DNA of 64,000 nucleotides from Arsukibacterium sp. UBA5043. GTDB lineage: Bacteria; Pseudomonadota; Gammaproteobacteria; Enterobacterales; Alteromonadaceae. Shown one piece after another: positions 36,399 through 50,258 of this stretch. The translations under genes and the position numbers were made by a program. The stretch spans positions 310,001 to 374,000 of the forward strand of contig DIBV01000006.1 of NCBI GenBank assembly GCA_002415085.1, read 5' to 3'. Position 1 is the stretch's first letter. Each line of letters begins with the position of its first letter. Below the pieces are notes generated by a model that was not told the DNA's origin, did no database searches, and saw only the letters and a program-made list of their open reading frames with translations.

Positions 36399-38030
36399 AT
36401 GAGTAGTAGCAAAAGTAAAGTTGATTTGTCATCCGCATTTTCCGCCTTGCGTCTGAGGTTCGAGCAAACATTACCGGAACGCGCCGCAAATTTGCAGGTT
36501 ATACTGGCCGCCGCCGACACTGAAGCTGCCGCTTTATTACCGTCAGTGATCAATGAAGCGCATAAACTGGCGGGAGCTTGTGGTACCTTTGGCTTTGCTA
36601 CTCTGGGTAGTCTTGCCCGCCAGATTGAACAGTTGGCGGTGGCGGTGCAGGGTAAAACATCCGCAGAGCAGCTGTATTCATTATCACAATTAAAGCACTT
36701 ATTGCTGGAATTTGATGTTGCCGTGAGTATGGCATTGCAGTCTGGTCAGCATGATACAGTTGCCAGCATCATGCCGCTGGCTGAAAATACCAGTGTATGG
36801 TTATTGCTTGATAACCAGCAGCTTATTGCTGAGCTTACCGGGCAGCTAGAGGCTTTTGGTCATAACGTGACCTTGTTTTCAGATTTTGACAGCTGTTTAA
36901 GACAGTTGCAGCAAACAGCACCCGCAGTGCTGTTCGCCGACACTGAACTGAAGCGGGGCGGCTCACTGTTTCAGCAAAAGCTATTGCTGGAGTCTCTGGT
37001 TAAAAGACACGCGCGATTGCTGGTATATTCAACCACCGATAGCTTTGAACTGAGAATTAAAGCAGCAGAATACAGGGCGGCTGCTTTTTTTATTTCGCCA
37101 TTGAATATTCCAGACATGGTTACATCCATTGGCGAAATGCTTGAAGAAAGCATTGGTAAAACCGGCAGAGTTTTTATTGTCGAAGATGATAAGTTGCTGG
37201 CAGAGCATTATGCACTGGTGTTGAGTAGTATGGGAATCGAAACCCAGGTAGTGGGTCGGATCCGTAATATTATCGATGAGTTAACCCGGTTTCAGCCTGA
37301 TTTGATCTTGATGGATATGTATATGCCGGAATTCTCCGGTGCCGAGGTGGCAGGGTTAATCCGCCAATATAAATCGTTAAAAAGACTGCCGATCGTTTAT
37401 CTTTCTTCTGAAACCAACAAAACATTGCAAATAAAAGCCATGGCTCATGGCGCTGATGATTTTATTACCAAACCTATAGATGACCTGCAACTAGCTCAGG
37501 CAATAAAAGTGCGGCTGGCACGTAGTTTACAAATTAAAAACCTGATTGAAAAAGACAGTTTAACGGCACTGATTAAGCACAGCGCTATCAAAGAGGCTGC
37601 TGAACTGGAATACGAACGCAGTGAACGGAGCAAAAAACCAATGAGTGTGGTGATGCTGGATATCGACCATTTTAAAAAGGTCAATGACAGCTATGGCCAC
37701 GCGGTGGGTGATTTAGTTATTACATCATTGGCGACACTGCTGCGCAAAAGGATCCGTAAAACCGACCGGGCTGGTCGCTACGGGGGGGAGGAGTTTATGC
37801 TGGTATTGCCAGAGTGTCCTGCAGAGCAAGCCAGAATGCTGGCCAATCAGTTATTGACGGCTTTTGCCACCTTGCAGTTCAACATTAATGATCGGCCATT
37901 TTCCTGTACCTTTTCGGCTGGAGTTGCGTCGGCACCAGCCAATAATATTGCAAGCGCAGCAGAATTAATTAACGCTGCCGATGAGGCCTTATACCGGGCA
38001 AAACGTGCCGGACGCAATCAGGTATGTTAG
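36399..38030 (+). CDS. Hpt-REC-REC-GGDEF diguanylate cyclase
   Basis: 543 residues. Residues about 10-115 form an Hpt-like domain with HKLAGACGTFGF, putative phospho-acceptor His55. A divergent receiver-like region (about 130-250; acceptor position in FADTEL) and a canonical receiver (about 255-370; Asp306 in LMDMYMPE) follow, then GGDEF (about 380-543) with GGEEF at 462-466 and an intact RKTD inhibitory site. So it should be an active, feedback-inhibited cyclase. Combination with Hpt is uncommon; here it supplies the Hpt that the upstream hybrid kinases lack. The gene is the last of the signalling cluster. Confidence 0.9.
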   Translation: MSSSKSKVDLSSAFSALRLRFEQTLPERAANLQVILAAADTEAAALLPSVINEAHKLAGACGTFGFATLGSLARQIEQLAVAVQGKTSAEQLYSLSQLKHLLLEFDVAVSMALQSGQHDTVASIMPLAENTSVWLLLDNQQLIAELTGQLEAFGHNVTLFSDFDSCLRQLQQTAPAVLFADTELKRGGSLFQQKLLLESLVKRHARLLVYSTTDSFELRIKAAEYRAAAFFISPLNIPDMVTSIGEMLEESIGKTGRVFIVEDDKLLAEHYALVLSSMGIETQVVGRIRNIIDELTRFQPDLILMDMYMPEFSGAEVAGLIRQYKSLKRLPIVYLSSETNKTLQIKAMAHGADDFITKPIDDLQLAQAIKVRLARSLQIKNLIEKDSLTALIKHSAIKEAAELEYERSERSKKPMSVVMLDIDHFKKVNDSYGHAVGDLVITSLATLLRKRIRKTDRAGRYGGEEFMLVLPECPAEQARMLANQLLTAFATLQFNINDRPFSCTFSAGVASAPANNIASAAELINAADEALYRAKRAGRNQVC

Positions 38031-38087
38031 TTATTTTGCCGGTTTGCACATAACAGCCACTCTTTCTAAATTTTTTTAACTAATAAC

Positions 38088-38118
38088 CTTGAATCGATCA
38101 GGGCTAATCCCCACTAAT
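38088..38118 (+). promoter_or_regulatory. Candidate sigma-32 promoter of dnaK
   Basis: CTTGAA (38088-38093), 15 bases, then CCCCACTAAT (38109-38118). Near the heat-shock sigma consensus. Transcription would start about 40 bases before dnaK. The region contains no CIRCE inverted repeat. Confidence 0.6.
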
Positions 38119-38165
38119 CAGTCAACGCAATTTTTAATTGTTCAGAATATAAGTGGAGAGCAGTT

Positions 38166-40079
38166 ATGGGTAGAATAATCGGTATTGACTTGGGTACAAC
38201 CAATTCATGTGTTGCTGTGTTAGATGGCGACAAACCTCGGGTTTTAGAGAACGCAGAAGGCACACGTACTACGCCTTCAATTATTGCTTATGCTGAAGAT
38301 GGTGAAGTATTAGTAGGTCAGCCAGCAAAACGTCAGGCTGTTACTAATCCTAAAAATACCCTGTATGCGATAAAGCGTTTAATTGGTCGTCGCTTTGAAG
38401 ACGAAGAAGTGCAACGCGACATTAAAATTATGCCGTTTAAAATTATTAAAGCGGATAACGGCGATGCCTGGGTTGAAGTTAAAGACAAAAAACTGGCCGC
38501 GCCGCAAATTTCAGCTGAAGTGCTGAAAAAAATGAAGAAAACGGCTGAAGATTTCTTAGGCGAACCGGTTACCGCCGCCGTTATTACGGTGCCGGCCTAT
38601 TTTAATGATGCACAGCGCCAGGCAACCAAAGATGCTGGCCGCATTGCTGGTTTAGACGTAAAACGGATTATCAACGAGCCAACTGCTGCGGCGCTGGCTT
38701 ATGGTATGGATAAGAAGAAAGGCGACACCAAGATTGCAGTGTATGACTTAGGTGGCGGTACCTTCGATATTTCTATCATTGAAATTGACGATGTAGACGG
38801 CGAGCAAACCTTTGAAGTGTTGTCCACCAATGGTGATACCCACTTAGGTGGAGAAGACTTCGATAACCGGGTAATTAACTATCTGGTTGATGAATTCAAA
38901 AAAGAGCAGGGCATGGACCTGCGTAACGATTCGTTAGCGATGCAGCGGGTAAAAGAAGCTGCTGAAAAAGCTAAGATTGAGTTGTCATCCGCCTCGCAAA
39001 CTGAAGTTAATTTGCCTTACATCACTGCGGATGCGTCAGGCCCGAAACATTTAAATATTAAAGTGACCCGCGCCAAGCTGGAATCTTTAGTAGAAGATTT
39101 GGTGCAGCGTACTTTAGAGCCGCTGAAAAAAGCCTTAGCTGATGCCGATTTAAGCGTAAGCGAAATTAATGAAATTATCCTGGTTGGTGGCCAGACCCGG
39201 ATGCCTAAAGTGCAGGAAGCGGTAACGGCTTTCTTCGGTAAAGAGCCACGTAAAGATGTCAACCCGGATGAGGCGGTAGCGGTAGGTGCAGCCATCCAGG
39301 GTGCGGTACTCTCTGGTGACGTTAAAGACGTATTGCTGCTGGATGTTACTCCGCTGTCGCTGGGTATTGAAACGATGGGTAGCGTGATGACCGCGCTGAT
39401 TGAGAAAAACACCACTATCCCGACTAAAAAGTCGCAAGTGTTCTCAACCGCCGATGATAATCAGGCGGCAGTTACCATTCATGTGTTGCAGGGCGAGCGT
39501 AAGCGCGCCACAGACAATAAATCACTAGGCCAGTTCAACCTGGAAGGTATTCGTCCGGGGCGTCGTGGTGAGCCACAAATTGAAGTGACCTTCGATTTGG
39601 ATGCTGATGGTATTTTACATGTGTCGGCGAAAGATAAAGACACCGGTAAAGAGCAGAAGATTACCATCAAGTCGTCTTCAGGTTTATCAGAAGATGAAAT
39701 TGCTGCCATGGTACGTGATGCAGAAGCACACGCTGAGGAAGACAAAAAGTTTGAAGAACTGGTGCAAACCCGTAATCAGGCTGATGCGATGGTACATGCT
39801 ACCCGTAAGCAACTGGAAGAAGCAGGTGATAGTTTAGCCAGTGAAGACAAAGCCGCTATTGAAACGGCAATCAACGAGCTGGAAACTGCACTGAAAGGCA
39901 GCGATAAGGCAGAAATTGATGCTAAATCGCAGGCGCTGATTCAGGCTTCACAGAAGTTGATGGAAGCGGCTCAGGCGAAAGCCCAACAGGGCGGTGCCGA
40001 TGCCGGCCAGCAACAATCTGCTGGTGCTGACGATGTTGTTGACGCTGAGTTTGAAGAAGTAAAAGACGACAACAAATAA
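38166..40079 (+). CDS. dnaK: Molecular chaperone DnaK (Hsp70)
   Basis: 637 residues (E. coli 638). ATPase domain with [14 protein letters not shown] at the start, [12 protein letters not shown] phosphate loop and [11 protein letters not shown]; interdomain linker [14 protein letters not shown]; substrate-binding domain and helical lid; acidic C-terminus ending EEVKDDNK. Cytoplasmic chaperone working with DnaJ and GrpE and feeding back on sigma-32. It begins a dnaK-dnaJ pair with a sigma-32-like promoter; an intercistronic hairpin follows. Confidence 0.98.
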
Positions 40080-40088
40080 TACGGGCCC

Positions 40089-40109
40089 GGGCTGCATCTA
40101 ATGCAGCCC
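40089..40109 (+). other. Intercistronic hairpin between dnaK and dnaJ
   Basis: A nine-base perfect stem GGGCTGCAT/ATGCAGCCC with a CTA loop, ten bases after the dnaK stop and not followed by a T-run. It may protect dnaK mRNA and lower dnaJ expression rather than terminate transcription. Confidence 0.6.
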
Positions 40110-40136
40110 TATGACTAAGAAGTAAGTACTGAATTT

Positions 40137-41282
40137 ATGTCAAAGCGTGACTACTATGAAGTATTGGGTGTCGCTAAAGGCGCCGATGATAAAGACATCA
40201 AAAAGGCTTATAAACGCCTCGCTATGAAATTTCACCCTGACCGTACTCAGGGTGATAAAGGCATGGAGGAGAAGTTTAAAGAAGTTCAGGAAGCCTATGA
40301 GGTTTTATCAGACGAGCAAAAACGCGCTGCCTATGATCGTTTTGGCCATGCCGGGGTAGATCCTAACCGCGGCGGCGGTGGTTTTGGTGGCGGCGCGGGC
40401 GCTGGCGACTTTGGTGATATTTTTGGCGATGTGTTCGGCGATATTTTTGGTGGCGGCGGTGCTCGTCGCGGCCAGTCGCGGGCGCAGCGTGGTTCAGATC
40501 TGCGTTACAATCTGGAACTCAATCTGGAAGAAGCGGTTAAAGGTAAGTCGGTTGATATTAAAGTACCAACTTACGTTAACTGTGACAGCTGTGATGGTTC
40601 AGGTGCAAAAAAAGGTACGTCTGCCAAAAGTTGTCCAACCTGCCATGGCGCGGGTCAGGTAACCATGCGTCAGGGCTTTTTTGCAGTACAGCAAACATGT
40701 CCTACCTGTAATGGTCGCGGTAAAATTATTCCGGAGCCTTGTAGCAAATGTCATGGCGAAGGCCGGGTTGAGAAAACCAAAACGCTATCGGTTAAAATTC
40801 CGGCAGGTGTTGATACCGGCGATCGTATTCGTCTAACCGGCGAAGGCGAAGCAGGCATGCATGGTGCGCCAGCAGGCGATTTGTATGTGCAGGTTAATGT
40901 TAAAGCGCACCCTATTTTTCAACGCGATGGTAATAACTTGTACTGTGATGTACCACTGAGCTTTGCTACTGCAGCCCTTGGTGGTGAAATTGCGGTGCCT
41001 ACGCTGGATGGACGGATCAAGCTGAAAATACCAGCGGAAACCCAGACCGACAAAATGTTCCGCTTGCGGGGCAAAGGTGTGCAATCGGTCCGCGGTGGCG
41101 GGGTGGGCGATTTGGTTTGCAAAGTGGTGATTGAAACGCCAGTTAACCTGAGCGACAAGCAGAAAGAGTTGTTGCGACAGCTTGAAGACACCATGGGCGG
41201 TGAAGGTGAAGCAAAACATCGGCCTAAATCAAAGGGTTTTTTTGATGGTGTAAAAAAATTCTTCGATGATTTAACTGGTTAA
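40137..41282 (+). CDS. dnaJ: Chaperone DnaJ (Hsp40)
   Basis: 381 residues. J domain (about 1-70, HPD motif in KFHPDRT), Gly/Phe-rich linker (about 75-115), four CxxCxGxG-type zinc repeats ([32 protein letters not shown]), then the C-terminal client domains. Stimulates DnaK ATPase and delivers clients. Co-transcribed with dnaK (57-base gap with a hairpin). A TTCG-looped terminator follows 10 bases after the stop, closing the operon. Confidence 0.97.
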
Positions 41283-41290
41283 ATAAACAT

Positions 41291-41318
41291 AAAACCACCT
41301 TCGGGTGGTTTTTTTTTC
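41291..41318 (+). terminator. Terminator of dnaK-dnaJ
   Basis: A stem AAAACCACC/GGTGGTTTT with a TTCG tetraloop and a long T-run; a textbook intrinsic terminator. Confidence 0.95.
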
Positions 41319-41381
41319 AACTGCCGATACAATTAACAACATGGGTACATTCGGTGGCCCTGCCTTAATAAGGATTTTGAT

Positions 41382-42182
41382 ATGTTGAAGAAGTTTTCAC
41401 TGGCTGCAGTAGCTGCTATGGTTGTTATGTCATGCGCACAATCACCAACGGGGCGTAATCAGATTATGCTGTTTGATAGCAAACAGTTGAGTACGATGGG
41501 TGAGCAAACTTTTGAAACAATGAAGGCTGAAACACCGATCAGTAAAGACGTCAGAACCAATGATTATGTGCAGTGCATCGCCAGTGCTTTATTGCGGGTA
41601 ACGCCGGAAGAATATTTGATTAACCCATGGGAAGTTGTGGTATTTGACAGTGAACAAGTAAATGCCTTTGCTTTGCCTGGCGGTAAAATAGGGGTGTATA
41701 CCGGTCTGTTAAACGTAGCCGAGAATCAAGAGCAACTGGCTGCCGTTATTGGTCATGAAATAGCCCACGTTATTGCCAGTCACAGTAATGAGCGCTTATC
41801 CACCAACCAGTTTTTACAGTCCGCGTTAGCGCTGGGCGATGCAGGCACCAAGGCTTATGGTGTGCAGTATCAACAGGAAATTATGGCTGCTCTTGGTTTG
41901 GGCGCACAATTAGGGGTAACTCTGCCATTTAGCCGAACGCATGAAACTGAAGCAGATGTAATCGGACTGGATTTAATGGCTAAAGCTGGCTTTGAACCAC
42001 GCCAGGCGGTAAATTTGTGGCAGAATATGGCAGCAGCCAGCAGCAATAACACCCCGCAGTTTCTATCCAGCCATCCGATACCGGAAAACAGGATAGCGGA
42101 ATTGCGCACAAGAATGCCGGCTGCGATGGCTACTTTTACGGAACGGAAACAGGCGGGGCGTTTACCAGCTTGCCGTAAATAA
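41382..42182 (+). CDS. M48-family metalloprotease lipoprotein (LoiP/YggG-like)
   Basis: 266 residues. A lipobox-like MSCAQ at Cys18 suggests lipidation. The catalytic zinc site is HEIAH (His125, Glu126, His129), with the third ligand in the downstream EADVIGLDLMAKAG helix. Similar enzymes (E. coli LoiP, BepA-like family) are periplasmic proteases of envelope quality control, often linked with heat or osmotic stress. It follows the dnaK-dnaJ terminator, on its own promoter, so its location next to the chaperones may be incidental. The end QAGRLPACRK is short; no TPR domain is fused. Confidence 0.88.
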   Translation: MLKKFSLAAVAAMVVMSCAQSPTGRNQIMLFDSKQLSTMGEQTFETMKAETPISKDVRTNDYVQCIASALLRVTPEEYLINPWEVVVFDSEQVNAFALPGGKIGVYTGLLNVAENQEQLAAVIGHEIAHVIASHSNERLSTNQFLQSALALGDAGTKAYGVQYQQEIMAALGLGAQLGVTLPFSRTHETEADVIGLDLMAKAGFEPRQAVNLWQNMAAASSNNTPQFLSSHPIPENRIAELRTRMPAAMATFTERKQAGRLPACRK

Positions 42183-42357
42183 TGGAGGCGGCAGCGGGCT
42201 GTAGCCGTCAGATAAATTTACAATATAACTGTTTTCTGAAGCACGATTTTTGATAAATCTGCTATTTTCAACGAATTACAGTGTTGGATTGGAATTTGCA
42301 TGATGCAGGCAATAGTTCAATTTGCACTGCACTATCAGGACAAGGGTGACAGAGTCT

Positions 42358-42945
42358 ATGGATAATAAGGATATTAAAACAACGAACAGCCGCCGTAAAT
42401 TTATAGTGCGGGCAGGTATGGGTTCGTTGCCAGTGCTAATGGCCCTGAAAAGCAAGGGTGCCTGGGGTTACACTACCCAGAATTGTAATTTAAGTGCGTC
42501 GATGTCGCAAATGCAGTCGACACAGGCGGATCAGTTTGAATCCTGTGTAGGGGGATTTAAATCTCACGGTTCAGGAAAGCAGTATTTTAAAACCAATTCT
42601 GGCAATGAACAATTTGGTTATTTTTTATCAACACACAGTAACTACCATTCAAAGGGCGCTGAAACTTTTAATTTTGGATCCGTGAGCATTAATGAGAATA
42701 CCACTTTTAGTGATATTTTTGGTGGCGGCGATACGACTAAACTTAAAATGGCCTTACAAGGTGGTGGTCCATCACTACGAAGAAACATCACTAGCCTTTT
42801 CCTTCACTCTATGTTTTACAGACACCAGGAAATGTTTCCTGATCCGGAAGTCGTTGTTAGTTCATATAATAATGCTATTCTTTATGGCAGAACTAAAGAA
42901 CTGGAAGAAATTTTAGTGCTCTATATAGATGGAGTACCTGATTAG
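42358..42945 (+). CDS. Unrecognised exported protein with twin-arginine-like leader (first gene of HprK-like cluster)
   Basis: 195 residues from ATG 42358 (an upstream TTG frame is less likely). The leader SRRKFIVRAGMGSLPVLMAL has a double-Arg motif (about 14-17) and a hydrophobic core, similar to a Tat signal but without a perfect consensus. The body begins with cysteines (QNCNLS, ESCVGG) and ends without a membrane anchor. Residues about 120-160 (TTFSDIFGGGD, KLKMALQGGG, LRRNITSLFLHSMF) resemble, from memory, a motif of PEP-CTERM-type surface proteins (tFxdvFG...LLxAL...GGG...R...aaLLNA). The function is unknown; as the exported first gene it could be the product handled by the cluster. Confidence 0.55.
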   Translation: MDNKDIKTTNSRRKFIVRAGMGSLPVLMALKSKGAWGYTTQNCNLSASMSQMQSTQADQFESCVGGFKSHGSGKQYFKTNSGNEQFGYFLSTHSNYHSKGAETFNFGSVSINENTTFSDIFGGGDTTKLKMALQGGGPSLRRNITSLFLHSMFYRHQEMFPDPEVVVSSYNNAILYGRTKELEEILVLYIDGVPD

Positions 42946-42947
42946 CA

Positions 42948-43142
42948 ATGAGCAATGACGGCTCACCTTTAACGTCATTGAGTAGCTATGCTGTCTGGCT
43001 AAATCAAGCCAGGCAGATATTAACGGAACAGCAGCATCTGGTCAGCGTTAGTTTTTCTGCAGATAATACTGCTGTCAGTTTTGACAATATCAGTTATGCT
43101 ACTGCCAAAGTGATATCGGAACAGTCTGCTGTGCAGGAGTGA
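42948..43142 (+). CDS. Small protein of unknown function (64 residues)
   Basis: The ATG lies two bases after the preceding stop, and the TGA stop overlaps the next gene's GTG. So it is tightly coupled on both sides and probably real. Acidic, no signal peptide, no cysteine, no membrane segment. In HprK-related kinase A loci elsewhere a PqqD-like peptide chaperone of about 80-90 residues often occupies this slot; I do not see convincing PqqD similarity here, so it may be a diverged version or an unrelated protein. Function not assigned. Confidence 0.5.
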   Translation: MSNDGSPLTSLSSYAVWLNQARQILTEQQHLVSVSFSADNTAVSFDNISYATAKVISEQSAVQE

Positions 43143-44005
43143 GCTTGCCGTTTTTTTCACTACATACCCCGCCGTTCACCGTTCGTATCGAAACTGACAG
43201 CCCGACGTTATTTAACGATTTATTAAGGCTTTATCCAGCTGATGTGTTGCGTTCTGCGCCTCTTGCTGAGCATATCTATGACTTTCAAATCGATTATAAA
43301 AAACATTTCAGCGGCAAAAGCCGGCCTTATCATTTTCGAGCTGGCAGTGATCATTTCCGGATGGCCGATGCCAATCAGCTGATTCCTACCTTTGAGTGGG
43401 GGCTGAACTGGTGTGTCTCTGCTTATCAGCAGCAATATCTGGCCATTCATGCTGCAGTATTGGAAAAAAATGGCAATGCGTTAATTATGCCGGCGCCGCC
43501 AGGTAGTGGTAAAAGTACCTTATGTGCGCTGCTGATGCTAAAGGGCTGGCGCTTATTATCGGACGAAATGTGCCTGATTGACCCAACTAACGGCCAGTTG
43601 CAACCTTACGTGCGTCCGGTAAGTTTAAAAAATGCTTCAATTGACGTTGTTCAGCAGCATCAAGCCGGGGTGGAAGTATTCCATCGTACTCCAGATACTG
43701 AAAAAGGCACTGTCGCCTATTTACGACCCACTGATTTCAGCTGGCAGCAACTGGACACCCAGGCAAAGCCAGCCTGGATCCTATTTCCCGCCTATCAGGC
43801 TGACGCAACAGAGCCGGTTGCGCTGTTTACTATGCCCAAAGCCGATACCCTGCTTTATCTGGCGCAAAACAGCTTTAATTACGCCGTTTTTGCGGCTGAA
43901 GGTTTTAATTTATTAAGTCAGCTGGTAGAAAACACCGAGAGCTTCCGGCTGGAGTACCATGATACCAGGCAAATGCTGGAATTACTGGAGCAGGTGCTAT
44001 GTTAG
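43139..44005 (+). CDS. HprK-related kinase A-like protein
   Basis: 288 residues. Similar to the HprK-related kinase A family: Walker A APPGSGKST (about 119-127), preceded by a LAIHAAVLEKNG strand and followed by WRLLSDEMCLID, the HPr-kinase-like acidic pair. True HPr kinase/phosphorylase acts on HPr Ser46, but this group lacks the standard N-domain and is of unknown target. GTG 43139 overlaps the previous stop; TTG 43145 has a better placed AGGAG and could be the real start. The last 7 bases overlap the nucleotidyltransferase-fold gene. The kinase probably phosphorylates a partner from the same locus. Confidence 0.72.
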   Translation: MSLPFFSLHTPPFTVRIETDSPTLFNDLLRLYPADVLRSAPLAEHIYDFQIDYKKHFSGKSRPYHFRAGSDHFRMADANQLIPTFEWGLNWCVSAYQQQYLAIHAAVLEKNGNALIMPAPPGSGKSTLCALLMLKGWRLLSDEMCLIDPTNGQLQPYVRPVSLKNASIDVVQQHQAGVEVFHRTPDTEKGTVAYLRPTDFSWQQLDTQAKPAWILFPAYQADATEPVALFTMPKADTLLYLAQNSFNYAVFAAEGFNLLSQLVENTESFRLEYHDTRQMLELLEQVLC

Positions 44006-45057
44006 TGCCATTGTTGATTCAGTGCTTTCGAAACCCGAAGCAATTTCTGGCCACAGCCAATGCTGCCTGTTGGAGTGACTTGTTGCAACAGGCACGGAGT
44101 CTGGGGTTGACGGCACAGCTGAAAGCGCTGTTTGAACGTCATAATATGCTGAACGAGTTACCGGAGACAGTACAAAAGCACTGTGCCTGGGGTTGGCGTT
44201 ATTATCAGAAACAGCGAGCCAGTTTATTTTACGAATTAATGCAGCTTGAGCCCGCACTGGCGCAGACTAATTATCCTTGCGTGTTGCTTAAAGGCGCAGC
44301 CTATCAGGCGCTGGGCCTGGCAGTAAGTGAAGGACGACTCTATTCTGATATTGATTTGCTGGTAAACCGGTCGCAGCTATCGGATTGCAAAGCTAAGTTA
44401 TTTTTTGCCGGTTTTTTCGAACCGGCCATGTCAGCATACGACAAACATTTTTACCTGGAGCTGTCGCATGAAAACCCGCCGCTTTACCATGTAAAACGTG
44501 GTACGACGCTGGATTTACATTTTGCCTTGTTTCCATTGGCAGGCCACAAAAATCTCGTCACTGAGCAGGTTTTTGCCAGTGCCAGCCTACTCGAGGGTTC
44601 CTGTTTTCAGGTGCCCAGCCTGAGTTATTTATATATTCATGCTGCTATCCACTTCTTCTGGCAAGAAGAACGGCATAAGTTAATTAAAGATTTAATTGAT
44701 TTGGATCTGCTGTACAACCAGCTAGCTGAAAGACAGCTGTTGCAGCAGCTATTGAACGACAGCAAGCAGTTTGGTGCGCTGGAACCTGTTGTGAATACGC
44801 TGCTGCTGGTTGAAAAACTGTTCAACCGCCAGTTGCCAGCAGAGATTGCCAGCCAACTGGCTAATAGCCCTGAGCGCCGGAATTTTGCCCGGGCTTTACT
44901 GCTCAGGCAACTGCAAGCAGGGACAATAGCAACATTAGCCGGTGCAATTTGGTACCTGCGGGGCTACCGGCACAAAATGCACTGGCGGGTATTACTACGC
45001 CATATCTGGGTTAAAAGCAGCCTGATGCTCCGACAGTACCGGCAGCGAACCAGTTGA
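43999..45057 (+). CDS. Nucleotidyltransferase-fold protein (NTP_transf_5 type)
   Basis: 352 residues. The core CVLLKGAAYQALGL, GRLYSDIDLLV and TLDLHF pattern (about 90-185) matches the putative nucleotidyltransferase family NTP_transf_5 (PF14907), with the DxD metal pair in SDIDLLV; the C-terminal part is helical (about 215-350). Members often accompany HprK-related kinase A and PqqD-like proteins. It could transfer a nucleotide to a sugar or protein; the substrate is unknown. It overlaps the kinase gene by 7 bases and ends this cluster, 17 bases from the converging nhaC. Confidence 0.72.
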   Translation: MLVPLLIQCFRNPKQFLATANAACWSDLLQQARSLGLTAQLKALFERHNMLNELPETVQKHCAWGWRYYQKQRASLFYELMQLEPALAQTNYPCVLLKGAAYQALGLAVSEGRLYSDIDLLVNRSQLSDCKAKLFFAGFFEPAMSAYDKHFYLELSHENPPLYHVKRGTTLDLHFALFPLAGHKNLVTEQVFASASLLEGSCFQVPSLSYLYIHAAIHFFWQEERHKLIKDLIDLDLLYNQLAERQLLQQLLNDSKQFGALEPVVNTLLLVEKLFNRQLPAEIASQLANSPERRNFARALLLRQLQAGTIATLAGAIWYLRGYRHKMHWRVLLRHIWVKSSLMLRQYRQRTS

Positions 45058-45074
45058 TCGCATCTGCGCTCGGC

Positions 45075-46412
45075 TTATGCGGTTTCAGTGTTAGCTGCGT
45101 TTACATCAGCCTGGCGCAGTAAAATAACGAAGCTGGCAACTACCAGTAAAATCAGGCAGTAAAAGCTGTGCGTTACCACCTGCCAGGGCGAGATACCAAA
45201 GCTGGCACCAAGCAGCAGCGCCTGCGCACCATAGGGCACTAAGCCCTGACTGATACAGGCAAAGATATCCAGTAAGCTGGCGCTTCGCCGTGGTGTGATC
45301 TGGTGTTGCTGCGCCAGATTTTTAGCAACATCGCCGGTCAGCACGATAGCAACAGTATTATTGGCGATACACAGGTTGCTGCTAAAGGCCAGCGCCGCTA
45401 TTGCCAGCTGCTGCGCTTTATTGCCCGCCAGTTTCAGCCTGCCGGTCAGGCGCTGAATTTGGGCGGAAATCCAACTTAAGCCCCCCTGTTGTTTAATAAA
45501 CTCACTTAAGCCGCTGACCAGCATTGCCAGCAAGAAAATCTCCTGCACGCTGACAAAGCCGGTCGCGATATCTTTACCTAAACCCGCAAGCTGATAGTCA
45601 GCAAATATACTGCCCTGCAATGCTGCCAGAATAATGCCAAGCACCAGTACAACAAATACATTTAATCCCAGCACGGCTAATACTAGGATGGCGGCGTAGG
45701 GCAGCACCCCGGTCCAGCTGAAATCAGCTGCTGCAACCGGAGCCGTAGCGCTGGTCAGAAATGAGTACAGCAGCAGGGTCAGAATGGCAGCGGGCAAGGC
45801 AATTTTTATATTTTCTTTAAATTTATCTGCCATTCTGGCGCCCTGGGTACGGGTCGAAGCGATGGTGGTGTCGGAAATAATTGACAAATTATCGCCAAAC
45901 ATCGCCCCGCTTAGCAGCACCCCTGCTACCAGTGCCGGGTCCAGGTTAGCCTGGGTAGCCAAACCTGCAGCGATAGGCGCCAGAGAGCCGATGGTACCCA
46001 TTGACGTGCCCATGGCTGTCGAAATCAGCGCAGCAATAATAAATAAACCCGGTAACAGCCAGGCCGCCGGAACAATACTCAGGCCGGCATTTACCGCAGC
46101 ATCTACGCCGCCGGTGGCAGTGGCAACGCTGGCAAAGGCACCGGCCAGCAGATAAATCAGACACATGGTAATAATATTATGGTTACCGGCACCTTTAATC
46201 AGCACGTCTATTGACTGTTGCAGTGGCGCCCGGTGCAGCCAGATAGCCAACATAATTGCCGGAATAATTGCCACATGACCAGGCAGCTGATAAAACGCAT
46301 AGTCAATTTGTTGTGCCTGAAAATACAAACCACTGCCTAAAAACAGCAATACAAACAGCCCTAACGGGATAAGAGAGCGTTTAGCGCCAGGCGGGCTTAG
46401 TGGGTTAACCAT
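45075..46412 (-). CDS. NhaC-family Na+/H+ antiporter
   Basis: 445 residues with about eleven or twelve hydrophobic helices. The NhaC-type signature is seen in STAMGTSMGTIGSLAPIA and GAMFGDNLSIISDTTIASTRTQG (about 140-190), where the conserved Asp and Thr/Ser bind cation. Secondary antiporter of the inner membrane exchanging Na+ for H+; related members carry dicarboxylates or malate/lactate, so substrate is not certain. It is convergent to the nucleotidyltransferase gene and divergent from the transporter-acyltransferase gene. Confidence 0.85.
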   Translation of the reverse strand: MVNPLSPPGAKRSLIPLGLFVLLFLGSGLYFQAQQIDYAFYQLPGHVAIIPAIMLAIWLHRAPLQQSIDVLIKGAGNHNIITMCLIYLLAGAFASVATATGGVDAAVNAGLSIVPAAWLLPGLFIIAALISTAMGTSMGTIGSLAPIAAGLATQANLDPALVAGVLLSGAMFGDNLSIISDTTIASTRTQGARMADKFKENIKIALPAAILTLLLYSFLTSATAPVAAADFSWTGVLPYAAILVLAVLGLNVFVVLVLGIILAALQGSIFADYQLAGLGKDIATGFVSVQEIFLLAMLVSGLSEFIKQQGGLSWISAQIQRLTGRLKLAGNKAQQLAIAALAFSSNLCIANNTVAIVLTGDVAKNLAQQHQITPRRSASLLDIFACISQGLVPYGAQALLLGASFGISPWQVVTHSFYCLILLVVASFVILLRQADVNAANTETA

Positions 46413-46578
46413 GATTTACCTCATCAAAAACGGCTGCGAACTATATAGATGGCCAGACGTCTTGTCAATATTTGCAGGAACTGCTGGTATCAGGTGACTA
46501 ACTTAGGGTATTTTGATGAAAAAACCTACCGTTTTTCAGTGCAGCGAAAGCCTGGACGCCGTCACATAGGGTATTGCA

Positions 46579-48450
46579 ATGTCAGAGCGTAACATTATTA
46601 ACAGTCGTCGCTTTTTACCGTTTTTTTTAACTCAGGCGCTGGGGGCCTTTAACGACAACGTATTTAAAAACTCCCTGATGTTATTACTGACATTTACTGC
46701 CGCTCAGGCCTTGCCCTGGAGTACCGACGTGACGATGAACCTGGCTGCAGGCTTATTTATTTTGCCGTTTCTGCTGTTCTCGGCCACGGCCGGCACCCTG
46801 GCCGACAGCATGTGTAAAAGCAGGCTTATCCGGGTACTGAAGCTCACCGAAATTATCCTGATGGCAGCTGCTGCCGTTGCCTTCTTTTTCCAGCAATATC
46901 TGGTACTGCTGGGCTTATTGTTTCTGATGGGCAGCCAGTCAGCGTTTTTTGGTCCGGTAAAATACGCCATATTGCCGCAGTTACTGGATGACAAGGAATT
47001 ACTAGCAGGCAATGCCTGGGTGGAAATGGGCACTTTTATTGCGATATTACTGGGCACCATCGTCGGTGGACTGGTTGTCGGGGTGGCGCATGCTTCATTA
47101 TGGATTGGCGCTATGGTGATCGTGTTTGCAGTGCTTGGCTATCTCAGCAGCCGGGCCATTCCAGCTGTCGGTAAAATAGATAATGCTGAGCGTTTTCGTT
47201 TCGCGCCCCTTAAGCAAACCTTGCAGACCATTAAAATCAGTTATGCTAACCGCACCTTATATCTGGCCATAATGGCGATCAGCTGGTTCTGGTTTCTGGG
47301 GGCCAGCTATTTAACCCAGTTCCCAAATTTTACCAAAACGGTGCTGGCCGGTGACAATACGGTGGTCACGGCATTACTGGTTGCTTTTTCGGTTGGGGTG
47401 GGGCTGGGTTCCATGTTGTGCGAGCGTTTATCGGGTAACCGGGTGGAGCTTGGCATAGTGCCGCTGGGTTCTCTTGGCTTAACAGTATTTGGTTGCAGTT
47501 TATATTTCAGCACACCGCAATTTATCTCAGGCGAGCTACTTAATCTAAGCGCATTTTTGCAATCAGGATACGGCTGGTGGGTGCTGTTTAACCTTACGCT
47601 AATTGGCGTTTCCGGCGGTTTGTTTATTGTGCCCTTGTATGCGTTATTGCAAAAAAGGGCTGAGCCTGGCCAGCGGGCCAGAATGATTGCGGCCAATAAT
47701 ATTTTTAATGCGCTTTTTATGGTGGCGAGCGCCGTGGCTGCTGTCGTGTTTTTAGCAGTGCTGGGATTAACCATACCGGAGTATTTTTTAATTCTGGCCG
47801 TTATGAATGCGGTGGTTGCTTTATATGTTTACAGTCAGGTACCGGAATTTGCCCTGCGGTTTGTGATTTATCTGCTAAGCCACACCCTGTACCGGGTTAA
47901 AAGTCAGGGGCTGGATAATATTCCCGATGAAGGTGCAGCGGTATTGGTGGCTAACCATGTCAGCTATGTGGATGCGCTGCTGATTGCCGGTGCGGTGCGC
48001 CGGCCCGTGCGCTTTGTTATGGAAAAAGCGATTTATGATTTGCCGGTTGCTAACTGGTTATTCCGGGCCGCCCGCACTATTCCTATCTGCAGCAAACAAA
48101 AAGATGAGCAGGTGTATGAAGCGGCCTTTACTGCGATAAAGCGTGAACTGGCTGCAGGCAATCTGGTGTGTATTTTTCCGGAAGGGCGGCTGACCAAAAC
48201 CGGCGATATTGATAATTTCCGGCCCGGTATCGAACGTATTATCGCTGAAAGTCCGGTACCGGTGGTGCCCATGGCGCTGCAGGGCTTATGGGGATCGTTT
48301 TTCAGTCATCATGGCAAAGGCGCTTTTAAGCCAAAAGGCCGATTGTGGTCTAGAATTACTCTGCACGCCAGCAACGCAATACCAGCCATTACCGTAAGTG
48401 CGGCAGTACTGGAGCAAAAAGTGCGGTTATTGCGTGGTGATGCAGTCTGA
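46579..48450 (+). CDS. MFS transporter-acyltransferase fusion (LplT-PlsC like)
   Basis: 623 residues. Residues about 1-415 form a twelve-helix MFS transporter resembling LplT, the lysophospholipid flippase (FFLTQALGAFNDNVFKN start; RARMIAANNIFNA). Residues about 430-610 are a PlsC-type acyltransferase with NHVSYVD (N459-D465) and FPEGRLT. In E. coli the separate LplT imports lysophospholipids and Aas reacylates them; this fusion joins transport and reacylation, but without the acyl-ACP synthetase part of Aas, so the acyl donor must come from elsewhere. Inner membrane. Confidence 0.88.
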   Translation: MSERNIINSRRFLPFFLTQALGAFNDNVFKNSLMLLLTFTAAQALPWSTDVTMNLAAGLFILPFLLFSATAGTLADSMCKSRLIRVLKLTEIILMAAAAVAFFFQQYLVLLGLLFLMGSQSAFFGPVKYAILPQLLDDKELLAGNAWVEMGTFIAILLGTIVGGLVVGVAHASLWIGAMVIVFAVLGYLSSRAIPAVGKIDNAERFRFAPLKQTLQTIKISYANRTLYLAIMAISWFWFLGASYLTQFPNFTKTVLAGDNTVVTALLVAFSVGVGLGSMLCERLSGNRVELGIVPLGSLGLTVFGCSLYFSTPQFISGELLNLSAFLQSGYGWWVLFNLTLIGVSGGLFIVPLYALLQKRAEPGQRARMIAANNIFNALFMVASAVAAVVFLAVLGLTIPEYFLILAVMNAVVALYVYSQVPEFALRFVIYLLSHTLYRVKSQGLDNIPDEGAAVLVANHVSYVDALLIAGAVRRPVRFVMEKAIYDLPVANWLFRAARTIPICSKQKDEQVYEAAFTAIKRELAAGNLVCIFPEGRLTKTGDIDNFRPGIERIIAESPVPVVPMALQGLWGSFFSHHGKGAFKPKGRLWSRITLHASNAIPAITVSAAVLEQKVRLLRGDAV

Positions 48451-48530
48451 GATATTTCATAGGCAATCAATAATCACACCTGATATGACGTGTATCGAAA
48501 AACTTTTTTAATAGTTTAAGGAGATACACT

Positions 48531-50258
48531 ATGAAAAAGCTAGTTATGTTATTGATTGTAATCAGTACTGTTGCCGGCATAAGTTATACCGTGTACAGCA
48601 GGCAACTGAATCATTCTGCAGTGGCTACACCAGCATCAACATCAGCAGCAATAGCCGCTAAAAACTATTTACCTGAAATTGCCCCTGTCGGCGCCACGTT
48701 TCTCGAAGGCCTCGGTAGCTTCAGCCTGCCAGTCAGCACGACTAACCCGGAAGCGCAGCGCTGGTTTAATCAGGCGATGATTCTGACCTATGGTTTTAAT
48801 CATCAGGCGGCAGAGCGCTCGTTTCTGAAAGCGATTGAGTCAGATCCTGCGTGTGCAATGTGCTGGTGGGGGGCGGCTTTGGTACTGGGGCCTCATGTTA
48901 ATGCCGCGATGGATCCGGCGAACAACGCGCCGGCATGGCAGCGGTTGCAAAAGGCGCAAGCACTGGCCGACGCTGCCAAACCCTGGGAGCAGGCATTTAT
49001 TAGCGCGTTAGCGGCACGTTATGCTGTGCCGGCCAACGCAGATCGCGCTGCTTTGGATAAAGCCTATGCCAGCGCGATGGCCAGTCTGGCAAAGTCCCTG
49101 CCGGATAATCTGGAAGCGGCTACCTTGTATGCCGAAGCAATGATGAACCTGCAGCCCTGGAATTACTGGGACGACAGCGGTAAGCCTGTTGGTGACACCC
49201 TTAACATTGTCCAGGTATTAGAAGGCGTTATGGCGCGCGATGCCAATCACGCCGGTGCTCTGCATTTGTATATTCATGCGGTGGAAGCGTCAGCTGAGCC
49301 AGAGCGCGGTGTGGTCGCAGCTGATCGGTTGCGCACCCTGATCCCGGGCTCTGGCCATTTGGTGCATATGCCAGCCCATATTTATGCCCGCGTCGGGCGC
49401 TGGCAGGATGCAGTGATTGCCAACCAACGGGCAATTGAAGCTGATGATGCTTACCTTGCAGCATGCAGGCCTGGCCCGGGTGTTTATCCGCTTGGTTATG
49501 TGCCACACAATCACCATTTTTTGTGGTTTGCGGCGACGATGACGGGTAATAAAAAAGTGGCTCTGGCTGCTGCCGACTCAACATATCAGCGAACCAGTGA
49601 CGCTAATCTGATGCGGATGCCGGGGATGGAGGCAATGCAGAATTTCGCGTCTACCCCGTTGTTTGCGATGGTCCGGTTTGGTCAGTGGCAGGATATCACT
49701 GCTATGACAAGACCGGCTGACGATTTACCCTATATGGTTGCGATATGGGAATACGCCCGGGGAATGGCAGCGCTGCGTACCGGTAATATCAGCCAGGCTA
49801 CTGCTCATCATGAAGCCTTAACCGGGCTTACCACATCGCCAGTCATCGACGCGATGACAGTCTGGAACCGCTATTCGCTGATCCACTCGGTAAAGCTGGC
49901 TGAGCGGATACTCGCAGCAGAACTGGCATGGCAGGCTAAAGAGCCTGATGCAGCCTTTACGGCGCTGCGTCAGGCGCTGACAATTGAAGATAAGCTTTTG
50001 TATGACGAGCCACCGGCATGGCATGCCCCGGTCAGGCAGACTCTTGGTTTTATGCTGCTGAATTCAGGGCAGGCGGCCGAGGCTGAAACCGTATACCAGG
50101 AAGAGTTACGCCGCAACCCGGAGAACGGCTGGTCACTGTTCGGCCTGGAGCAGGCATTACGGCAACAAGGTAAAACTGACGATGCGGATACGGTGGCAAA
50201 ACGGTTTGAGCAGGCGTGGATACATGCCGATATTACCCTGACTGCGTCCAGGTTGTAG
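48531..50258 (+). CDS. Exported TPR protein with Cys/His motifs
   Basis: 575 residues with an N-terminal signal/anchor helix (about 3-22), so periplasmic. Most of the protein is helical repeats of TPR type (AAERSFLKAIESDP, AETVYQEELRRNPENG). It has conserved motifs CAMCWWGAALVLGPHVN (about 106-122), HLYIHAVEAS, HMPAHIYAR and PHNHHFLWFA; the first is CxxCWW, not the CxxCH of cytochrome c. These could bind metal. Family proteins are commonly annotated only as tetratricopeptide proteins. It is followed four bases later by the converging SCO gene, a copper protein, which may be coincidental. Confidence 0.72.
   Translation: MKKLVMLLIVISTVAGISYTVYSRQLNHSAVATPASTSAAIAAKNYLPEIAPVGATFLEGLGSFSLPVSTTNPEAQRWFNQAMILTYGFNHQAAERSFLKAIESDPACAMCWWGAALVLGPHVNAAMDPANNAPAWQRLQKAQALADAAKPWEQAFISALAARYAVPANADRAALDKAYASAMASLAKSLPDNLEAATLYAEAMMNLQPWNYWDDSGKPVGDTLNIVQVLEGVMARDANHAGALHLYIHAVEASAEPERGVVAADRLRTLIPGSGHLVHMPAHIYARVGRWQDAVIANQRAIEADDAYLAACRPGPGVYPLGYVPHNHHFLWFAATMTGNKKVALAAADSTYQRTSDANLMRMPGMEAMQNFASTPLFAMVRFGQWQDITAMTRPADDLPYMVAIWEYARGMAALRTGNISQATAHHEALTGLTTSPVIDAMTVWNRYSLIHSVKLAERILAAELAWQAKEPDAAFTALRQALTIEDKLLYDEPPAWHAPVRQTLGFMLLNSGQAAEAETVYQEELRRNPENGWSLFGLEQALRQQGKTDDADTVAKRFEQAWIHADITLTASRL

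Follow-up and report, generated by a model that had tools for sequence, protein, structure and literature searches.

A conserved four-gene cassette around an HprK-related kinase, nested in exosortase-A genomes, as a candidate protein-tailoring module in Arsukibacterium

We analysed a 64,000-nucleotide stretch of Arsukibacterium sp. UBA5043 (assembly GCA_002415085.1, contig DIBV01000006.1, positions 310,001 to 374,000; hereafter the window) and found that four genes at 42358–45057 form a conserved cassette encoding, in order, a protein with a twin-arginine translocation (Tat) type signal, a small PqqD-like protein, an HprK-related kinase and an NTP_transf_5-type transferase (Table 1). The gene order, its conservation, the Tat-type signal, the intact residues of both enzymes, a serine ladder in the gene 1 protein and the nesting of the cassette in the exosortase-A genomes of its family are all observed. 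On this basis we give roughly an even chance to a protein-tailoring module, in which the products of genes 2 to 4 would modify serines of the gene 1 protein in the cytosol before Tat exports it. The first-pass annotation of this DNA had called the cassette a candidate undescribed system; the conserved four-gene unit is real, but NCBIfam already models the kinase and the PqqD-like partner of an 'HPr-rel-A system', so others have seen part of it. Within the searches made, what appears to be new is the constant Tat protein with its serine ladder (the proposed client), the transferase as a fixed partner, the exosortase-A nesting and the shortened adaptor of the genus. A kinase family that is uncharacterised within the same scope now has a concrete candidate for its client, one for the modified site and a pathway as partner.

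Table 1 Features of the cassette in the window (positions in the window; strand and basis as given)
Feature	Position	Strand	Description
Gene 1	42358..42945	+	195 aa from ATG; Tat-type signal, proposed substrate
Twin-arginine motif RRKFI of gene 1	42391..42405	+	From sequence
Serine ladder S46-x3-S50-x3-S54 of gene 1	42493..42519	+	Candidate modification site
C-terminal domain of gene 1, residues ~105-191	42670..42930	+	Predicted folded, mainly helical (AlphaFold2)
Gene 2	42948..43142	+	64 aa; putative shortened PqqD/RRE-like adaptor
Gene 3	43139..44005	+	288 aa, GTG start; HprK-related kinase A
H104 of kinase	43448..43450	+	Invariant, 86/86
Walker A stretch of kinase (PGSGKST)	43493..43519	+	Intact; G122, G124, K125, S126, T127 in 86/86
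D142-E143 of kinase	43562..43567	+	Invariant, 86/86
Gene 4	43999..45057	+	352 aa; NTP_transf_5-type nucleotidyltransferase/transferase
Probable active-site stretch of gene 4, K98-G99..Y102..R113..D117-x-D119	44290..44355	+	85-86 of 86

The layout read earlier from the letters, four genes on one strand with successive gaps of +2, −4 and −7 bases, was reproduced from the open reading frame (ORF) calls of the window. In a family sample of 196 genomes, 85 (the window's genome included) carry a kinase over the HprK_rel_A cut-off, amounting to 86 copies, two of them in genome G149. The transferase adjoins the kinase at each of the 86 loci, all of which were examined, and gene 1 lies upstream as an open Tat-signal frame at 85 (79 recognised by motif pattern, 6 with W in the motif). 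A small gene 2, called by position and size, likewise occurs at 85/86 loci, with one doubtful copy (L115, 31 aa after start trimming), and no gene 2 of at least 35 aa was found at the G047 locus. Conservation of the first two genes beside the kinase, on which the first-pass annotation had made its reading depend, was thereby borne out. Median gaps across the family loci are 10, −1 and −4 bases, based on longest-ORF starts. Nonsynonymous divergence (dN) was lower than synonymous divergence (dS) for each of the four genes against two congeners, with the weakest constraint on gene 2 and some dS values saturated. The four-gene arrangement exceeds chance: its order recurs in the family loci, and all four genes are under constraint. 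Gene 1 profile matches are expected by construction in kinase-positive genomes, and the kinase-negative genomes are the informative part; a match was found in 4/111 of these and a whole gene 1 in none. The match is a piece at the edge of a contig in G156 and a broken remnant in G181; in G169 and G135 it falls in the signal region of other Tat proteins. The G181 remnant (L214, G181:C99) consists of gene 1 pieces beside a sugar-epimerase-like gene, with no kinase detected. Separately, G035 carries a decaying cassette (L117) with an interrupted gene 1, a kinase split over two frames and an open gene 2 and transferase, and the two cassettes of G149 (L046, L113) have differing gene 1 sequences. Extra clients with the same N-terminus were considered in G040, G080 and G169 and rejected, these being Tat proteins of ~400 aa (which we take to be DUF1501-like) that are alike in the signal region only.

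The gene 1 product is likely a Tat-exported protein, judging from its signal. The twin arginines are residues 12 and 13 (R12 in 84/85 and R13 in 85/85 aligned copies; the interrupted G035 copy was excluded from this and the following counts), and the earlier description as an exported, Cys-containing protein fits the sequence, with cysteines at positions 43 and 63. The TIGR01409 Tat model matches 29/85 copies at E ≤ 0.1, and the window copy is not among these. Besides the arginines, the best-kept columns are M1 (84), S46 (83), S50 (78), Leu149 (74), S54 (73) and Asn150 (73). The three serines form a ladder just behind the presumed signal end (W-[A/G]); 2, 7 and 12 copies depart from it at S46, S50 and S54, respectively, several of them with serines shifted by 1–2 places. 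In the AlphaFold2 model (mean predicted local distance difference test score, pLDDT, of 69.2; predicted template modelling score 0.64), residues 31–56, ladder included, have pLDDT below 50 and are probably disordered, and the C-terminal domain has pLDDT of ~79–93 in blocks. The model has no fold match in the PDB at E ≤ 0.001, the protein has no solved relative by sequence, and the window copy matches nothing in NCBIfam at E ≤ 1 or in Pfam over cut-off.

Within the family, the genomes with the cassette kinase are a subset of those with exosortase A. Exosortase A was called with the curated TIGR03109 cut-off (208 bits), which replaced a 190-bit threshold chosen after seeing the scores. By this measure, 109/196 family genomes are positive, comprising 85/85 kinase-positive and 24/111 kinase-negative genomes (Fisher p 8e-34, a value that ignores kinship); the earlier threshold had given 84/85 versus 24/111. 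Within six genera, picked because both traits vary there and represented by the listed genomes only, exosortase A was present in 20/20 kinase-positive versus 3/17 kinase-negative genomes, and none of 200,000 within-genus shuffles reached that. A high-scoring exosortase (PF09721 above 190 bits) lies at most 65 kb from the kinase on the same contig in 46/85 genomes. The exosortase A of the host genome scores 343.7 bits against TIGR03109, and its XrtA locus, located on another contig than the cassette, has genes over the cut-offs of TIGR03109, TIGR03088, TIGR03108, TIGR03006, TIGR03007, TIGR03018 and TIGR03015. That locus also includes two tandem asparagine-synthase-like proteins (L217:15243-19129), the first over the TIGR03108 cut-off and the second under it (560 versus 816.9 bits); each also resembles the lasso cyclase model at a score below its cut-off. 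The cassette of the window differs from the XrtA/PEP-CTERM exopolysaccharide system, in which the family's cassettes are nested by distribution and often by position, in that it adjoins dnaK-dnaJ and its gene 1 product has no PEP-CTERM-like hydrophobic tail, as judged by eye.

The link is looser in the phylum sample, where any exosortase was detected in 32/61 kinase-positive versus 49/337 other genomes. Among loci from genomes in which no exosortase was detected, 25 of 29 were examined, and 23 of the 25 have an exopolysaccharide marker-like gene within 5 kb (six markers, tblastn). It may therefore be the exopolysaccharide machinery of XrtA type, and not the exosortase as such, that partners the cassette. 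By the same measure, such a marker lies near 33/86 family and 32/49 distant cassettes, and at many distant loci the cassette is located within an exopolysaccharide locus of XrtA type.

Proximity to exopolysaccharide genes also bears on two readings without protein tailoring. In the first, which we consider unlikely, the kinase would phosphorylate a small sugar that the nucleotidyltransferase then activates for exopolysaccharide synthesis, with gene 1 supplying this pathway with an exported binding protein or enzyme. Sugar-epimerase-like genes at 30/86 and nucleotide-sugar-dehydrogenase-like genes at 15/86 family loci (tblastn, within 5 kb), together with TIGR03088 glycosyltransferase-like genes at 23/49 and TIGR03108 amidotransferase-like genes at 21/49 distant loci, are consistent with this. 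However, it accounts neither for the PqqD-like gene nor for a constant Tat gene 1 with a serine ladder, the cassette of the window has no such sugar-gene neighbours (tblastn, 5 kb), and the HPr-kinase-like enzymes described in passages of two reviews act on a peptide serine (PMC8498205, PMC9266682). The second, an improbable one in our estimate, takes the gene 1 protein as an unmodified exported sensor and has the kinase phosphorylate the gene 2 or gene 4 product and so regulate exopolysaccharide. The association with exosortase-A genomes and exopolysaccharide loci fits such signalling, but no known DNA-binding or signalling domain exceeds its cut-off in the four window proteins (NCBIfam, Pfam), and the serine ladder and Tat export would again be unexplained.

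Both enzymes of the proposed tailoring module appear intact. The assignment of gene 3 as an HprK-related kinase A with an intact Walker A motif was confirmed at 276.2 bits to TIGR04352 (HprK_rel_A; curated cut-off 200), and K164, N165, T187, K189, G190 and N247 are invariant in 86/86 copies in addition to the residues of Table 1. By analogy with HPr kinases, D142-E143 are likely catalytic. An essential His-Lys-Asp-Asp set is reported for lasso kinases in the review literature (PMC9266682), to which H104, K125, D142 and E143 would correspond. The likeness of the kinase to HPr(Ser) kinase/phosphorylase consists of distant P-loop similarity and the invariant H104, K125 and D142, a presumed correspondence, and the kinase by itself has no solved relative by sequence. 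Gene 4 scores 117 bits to PF14907 (NTP_transf_5; gathering cut-off 31.2), in agreement with the DxD-bearing type named in the first-pass annotation, and is invariant at K98, G99, Y102, R113, D119, H157, D172, H174, H214, H218, D234, H335 and K339 (86/86), with D117 kept in 85/86. The window copies of both enzymes carry all of these residues; the transferase departs at positions 151, 155, 175 and 323, each conserved in 78–83/86 copies. A search for solved relatives of gene 4 by sequence returned just a 40-residue match (E 0.03).

A kinase of this kind could instead act on a remote HPr-like protein, its neighbours being unrelated. The host genome does encode an HPr-family (NPr-like) protein outside the window (G000:C8:26730-26969), beside ORFs that we take to be rapZ-like and ptsN-like, so that the setting presumably is that of an ordinary nitrogen-related phosphotransferase system (PTS-Ntr). 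Nothing connects the kinase to this protein, which we rejected as its target; of the 86 family loci, 85 have gene 1, 85 have gene 2 and all 86 have gene 4 linked to the kinase, and no Hpr_kinase_C match was found in the host genome at E ≤ 0.001. Taken together, we regard this explanation as very unlikely.

Gene 2 had been proposed as the peptide or carrier of the system, which its longer relatives do not favour; they point to an adaptor resembling PqqD or the recognition element (RRE) of ribosomally synthesised and post-translationally modified peptide (RiPP) systems, whose helical half has been lost in the genus. For the window copy, NCBIfam (TIGR04353 included) gave no match at E ≤ 1 and Pfam none over cut-off. 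Across the 84 copies taken, gene 2 spans 31–110 aa, and 71 of these were aligned (the window copy and 70 relatives); TIGR04353 ('HPr-rel-A system PqqD family peptide chaperone') matches 17/71 at E ≤ 0.1, and both distant copies scanned exceed its cut-off of 35. For L081, a full-length relative, the model (mean pLDDT 82) shows three strands and then helices, and Foldseek ranks four PDB chains of TbiB1, solved with lasso leader peptides, first and the sactipeptide enzyme 5why next (TM-scores of 0.29–0.47 on the query across these matches). We conclude that gene 2 of the window looks like a degenerate PqqD/RRE-like adaptor and not a product. It is 55–64 aa long in the window and five congeners (L033, L034, L035, L037, L038), and the one named record with gene 1, Arsukibacterium tuosuense (62% identity, with a neighbourhood matching that of the window), has a similarly short gene 2. 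Copies of 55–64 aa also occur in L040, L041, L114 and L108, that is, in more than one genus, and shortening of the adaptor may have occurred repeatedly.

Two known systems share kinds of component with the cassette. Because the kinase exceeds the TIGR04352 cut-off while gene 2 matches neither TIGR04353 nor any other model, we class the cassette, on its kinase and gene position, as a divergent relative of the HPr-rel-A system (TIGR04352 HprK_rel_A, TIGR04353 PqqD_rel_X) rather than a full member. Relatives of the cassette have their PqqD-like partner in the same position, and the model records as printed name neither a Tat client nor an NTP_transf_5 partner. In the open-licence PMC literature we found no paper on the HprK-related kinase, HPr-rel-A, TIGR04352, PqqD_rel_X, TIGR04353 or PF14907/NTP_transf_5, and none joining an exosortase with HPr kinase. 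The second is the tailoring of lasso peptides (paeninodin with PadeK, pseudomycoidin with PsmK/PsmN, and B1), which in the source passages uses a trio of the same kinds: a PqqD-type leader binder, an HPr-kinase-like serine kinase and a nucleotidyltransferase-like enzyme. According to passages of two reviews, the HPr-kinase-like PadeK, ThcoK and SyanK phosphorylate a precursor serine, and attachment of one or two hexoses to the phosphoserine requires PsmN, be it as a glycosyltransferase or in hexose addition after nucleotidylation (PMC8498205, PMC9266682). Kinase, PqqD and an 'uncharacterized nucleotidyltransferase' are also described as recurring together in lasso clusters in part of a third source (PMC7533575).

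This match of leader binder, kinase and nucleotidyltransferase kinds (PMC8498205, PMC9266682, PMC7533575, as excerpted) also favours a RiPP cluster, in which gene 1 would encode the precursor and its short N-terminal part, once modified, would be cleaved away to give a free active peptide. We think this quite improbable. A lasso client is a small precursor with a C-terminal Ser, whereas the gene 1 products are 169–306 aa long (79 copies measured; about 200 aa for the client), carry a Tat-type signal and are predicted by the model to fold in their C-terminal domain, and the window copy, the only one in which this was counted, ends in Asp. Neither the lasso leader protease B2 nor the cyclase C was found among seven neighbour proteins scanned at 36399–50258 (NCBIfam, E ≤ 1e-10).

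From the lasso kinase and PsmN precedent, with a constant Tat protein in the precursor's place, we infer that serines of the gene 1 protein are phosphorylated and decorated. In the tailoring module as we propose it, the PqqD/RRE-like protein, or the enzymes themselves in the window's genus, would hold the gene 1 protein in the cytosol before it is processed; the kinase would phosphorylate at least one serine of the S-x3-S-x3-S stretch (S46–S54) behind the signal peptide; and the NTP_transf_5 enzyme would add a group to the phosphoserine, most likely a hexose or nucleotidyl unit. The Tat pathway carries folded proteins, which fits modification in the cytosol first, and it would then export the folded, modified protein, whose N-terminal tail may serve an XrtA-type exopolysaccharide envelope or matrix. 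The first-pass annotation had instead cast the kinase and transferase as an export system, for which we found nothing in favour, the Tat signal explaining export. If our reading is true, tailoring enzymes of the lasso type work on exported proteins in their entirety, and the role of HPr-rel-A genes in exosortase-A bacteria becomes a question open to a short experiment. A bolder version, rather doubtful in our view, is that the tail bears a glycan or nucleotidyl anchor, linked through phosphoserine, by which XrtA-locus exopolysaccharide is tied covalently to its protein carrier, which would amount to a protein-exopolysaccharide linkage system borrowing the lasso tailoring trio for whole proteins.

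Several observations weigh against the tailoring module or its parts. As to the pathway, 29/61 kinase-positive phylum genomes have no detected exosortase, 24 family genomes with exosortase A have no cassette, and no exopolysaccharide marker gene was found beside the cassette of the window (tblastn, 5 kb; neighbour scan). As to the substrate, the ladder is not shared by distant Tat genes, where serines rather seem to precede a first Cys, so that no universal site emerges; conserved serines beside a signal cleavage site could instead serve export or folding. As to the enzymes, the kinase differs from true HPr(Ser) kinase/phosphorylase in scoring 11.2 bits (E 0.16) against a TIGR00679 cut-off of 240, 1jb1 came seventh (E 0.058) after other P-loop proteins, and the kinship of PsmN with PF14907 is an assumption. 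As to the adaptor, the fold likeness of L081 to RREs is weak (E 0.1–0.2; TM-scores of 0.36–0.47 for the four TbiB1 chains), in the window and close congeners gene 2 ends after the strands, without the helical half of an RRE, and it evolves fastest of the four genes (dN 0.28–0.59, dS 0.56–1.5 in three pairwise comparisons).

Beyond the family, 61/398 genomes sampled across the phylum have a kinase over the cut-off. Eight of the 61 belong to the family and are already counted; from the other 53, 49 loci were examined, outside of which stand G215, G270 and G365 (contig ends or fragments) and G381 (L208). A Tat-signal gene lies near the kinase in 43/49 distant loci, with sequences that differ from the gene 1 family of the window. 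These comprise 38 found by pattern, after false matches at L190 and L192 were dropped by eye, and five added later (L168, L176 as a fragment, L192, L195 and L197); the L168 gene is on the strand opposite to the kinase. No Tat-signal gene was seen near the kinase in L153, L169, L170, L183, L190 and L201. A rough script placed a Ser/Thr at most 7 residues before the first Cys in 38/41 distant segments, of which at least 4 are false (L154, L170, L190, L191), and we take this count in the distant Tat genes as only a lead.

Around the cassette of the window, the seven neighbour proteins are of DnaK, DnaJ, diguanylate cyclase, M48 peptidase, antiporter and acyltransferase types, with one lacking a match. 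A defence system was considered and rejected, PADLOC having matched the kinase weakly (E 0.0017–0.0025). The promoter and terminator scan was uninformative and none of its hits was used (promoter-like 6 versus 4.5 expected; terminator-like 10 versus 3.8 expected). A gene similar to trypsin-like proteases, absent at the window, lies within 5 kb of the kinase at 4/49 distant and 56/86 family loci (including L045, L047, L049, L050, L069 and L073). We presume that it encodes a trypsin-like serine protease of ~250 aa, which may process the exported protein.

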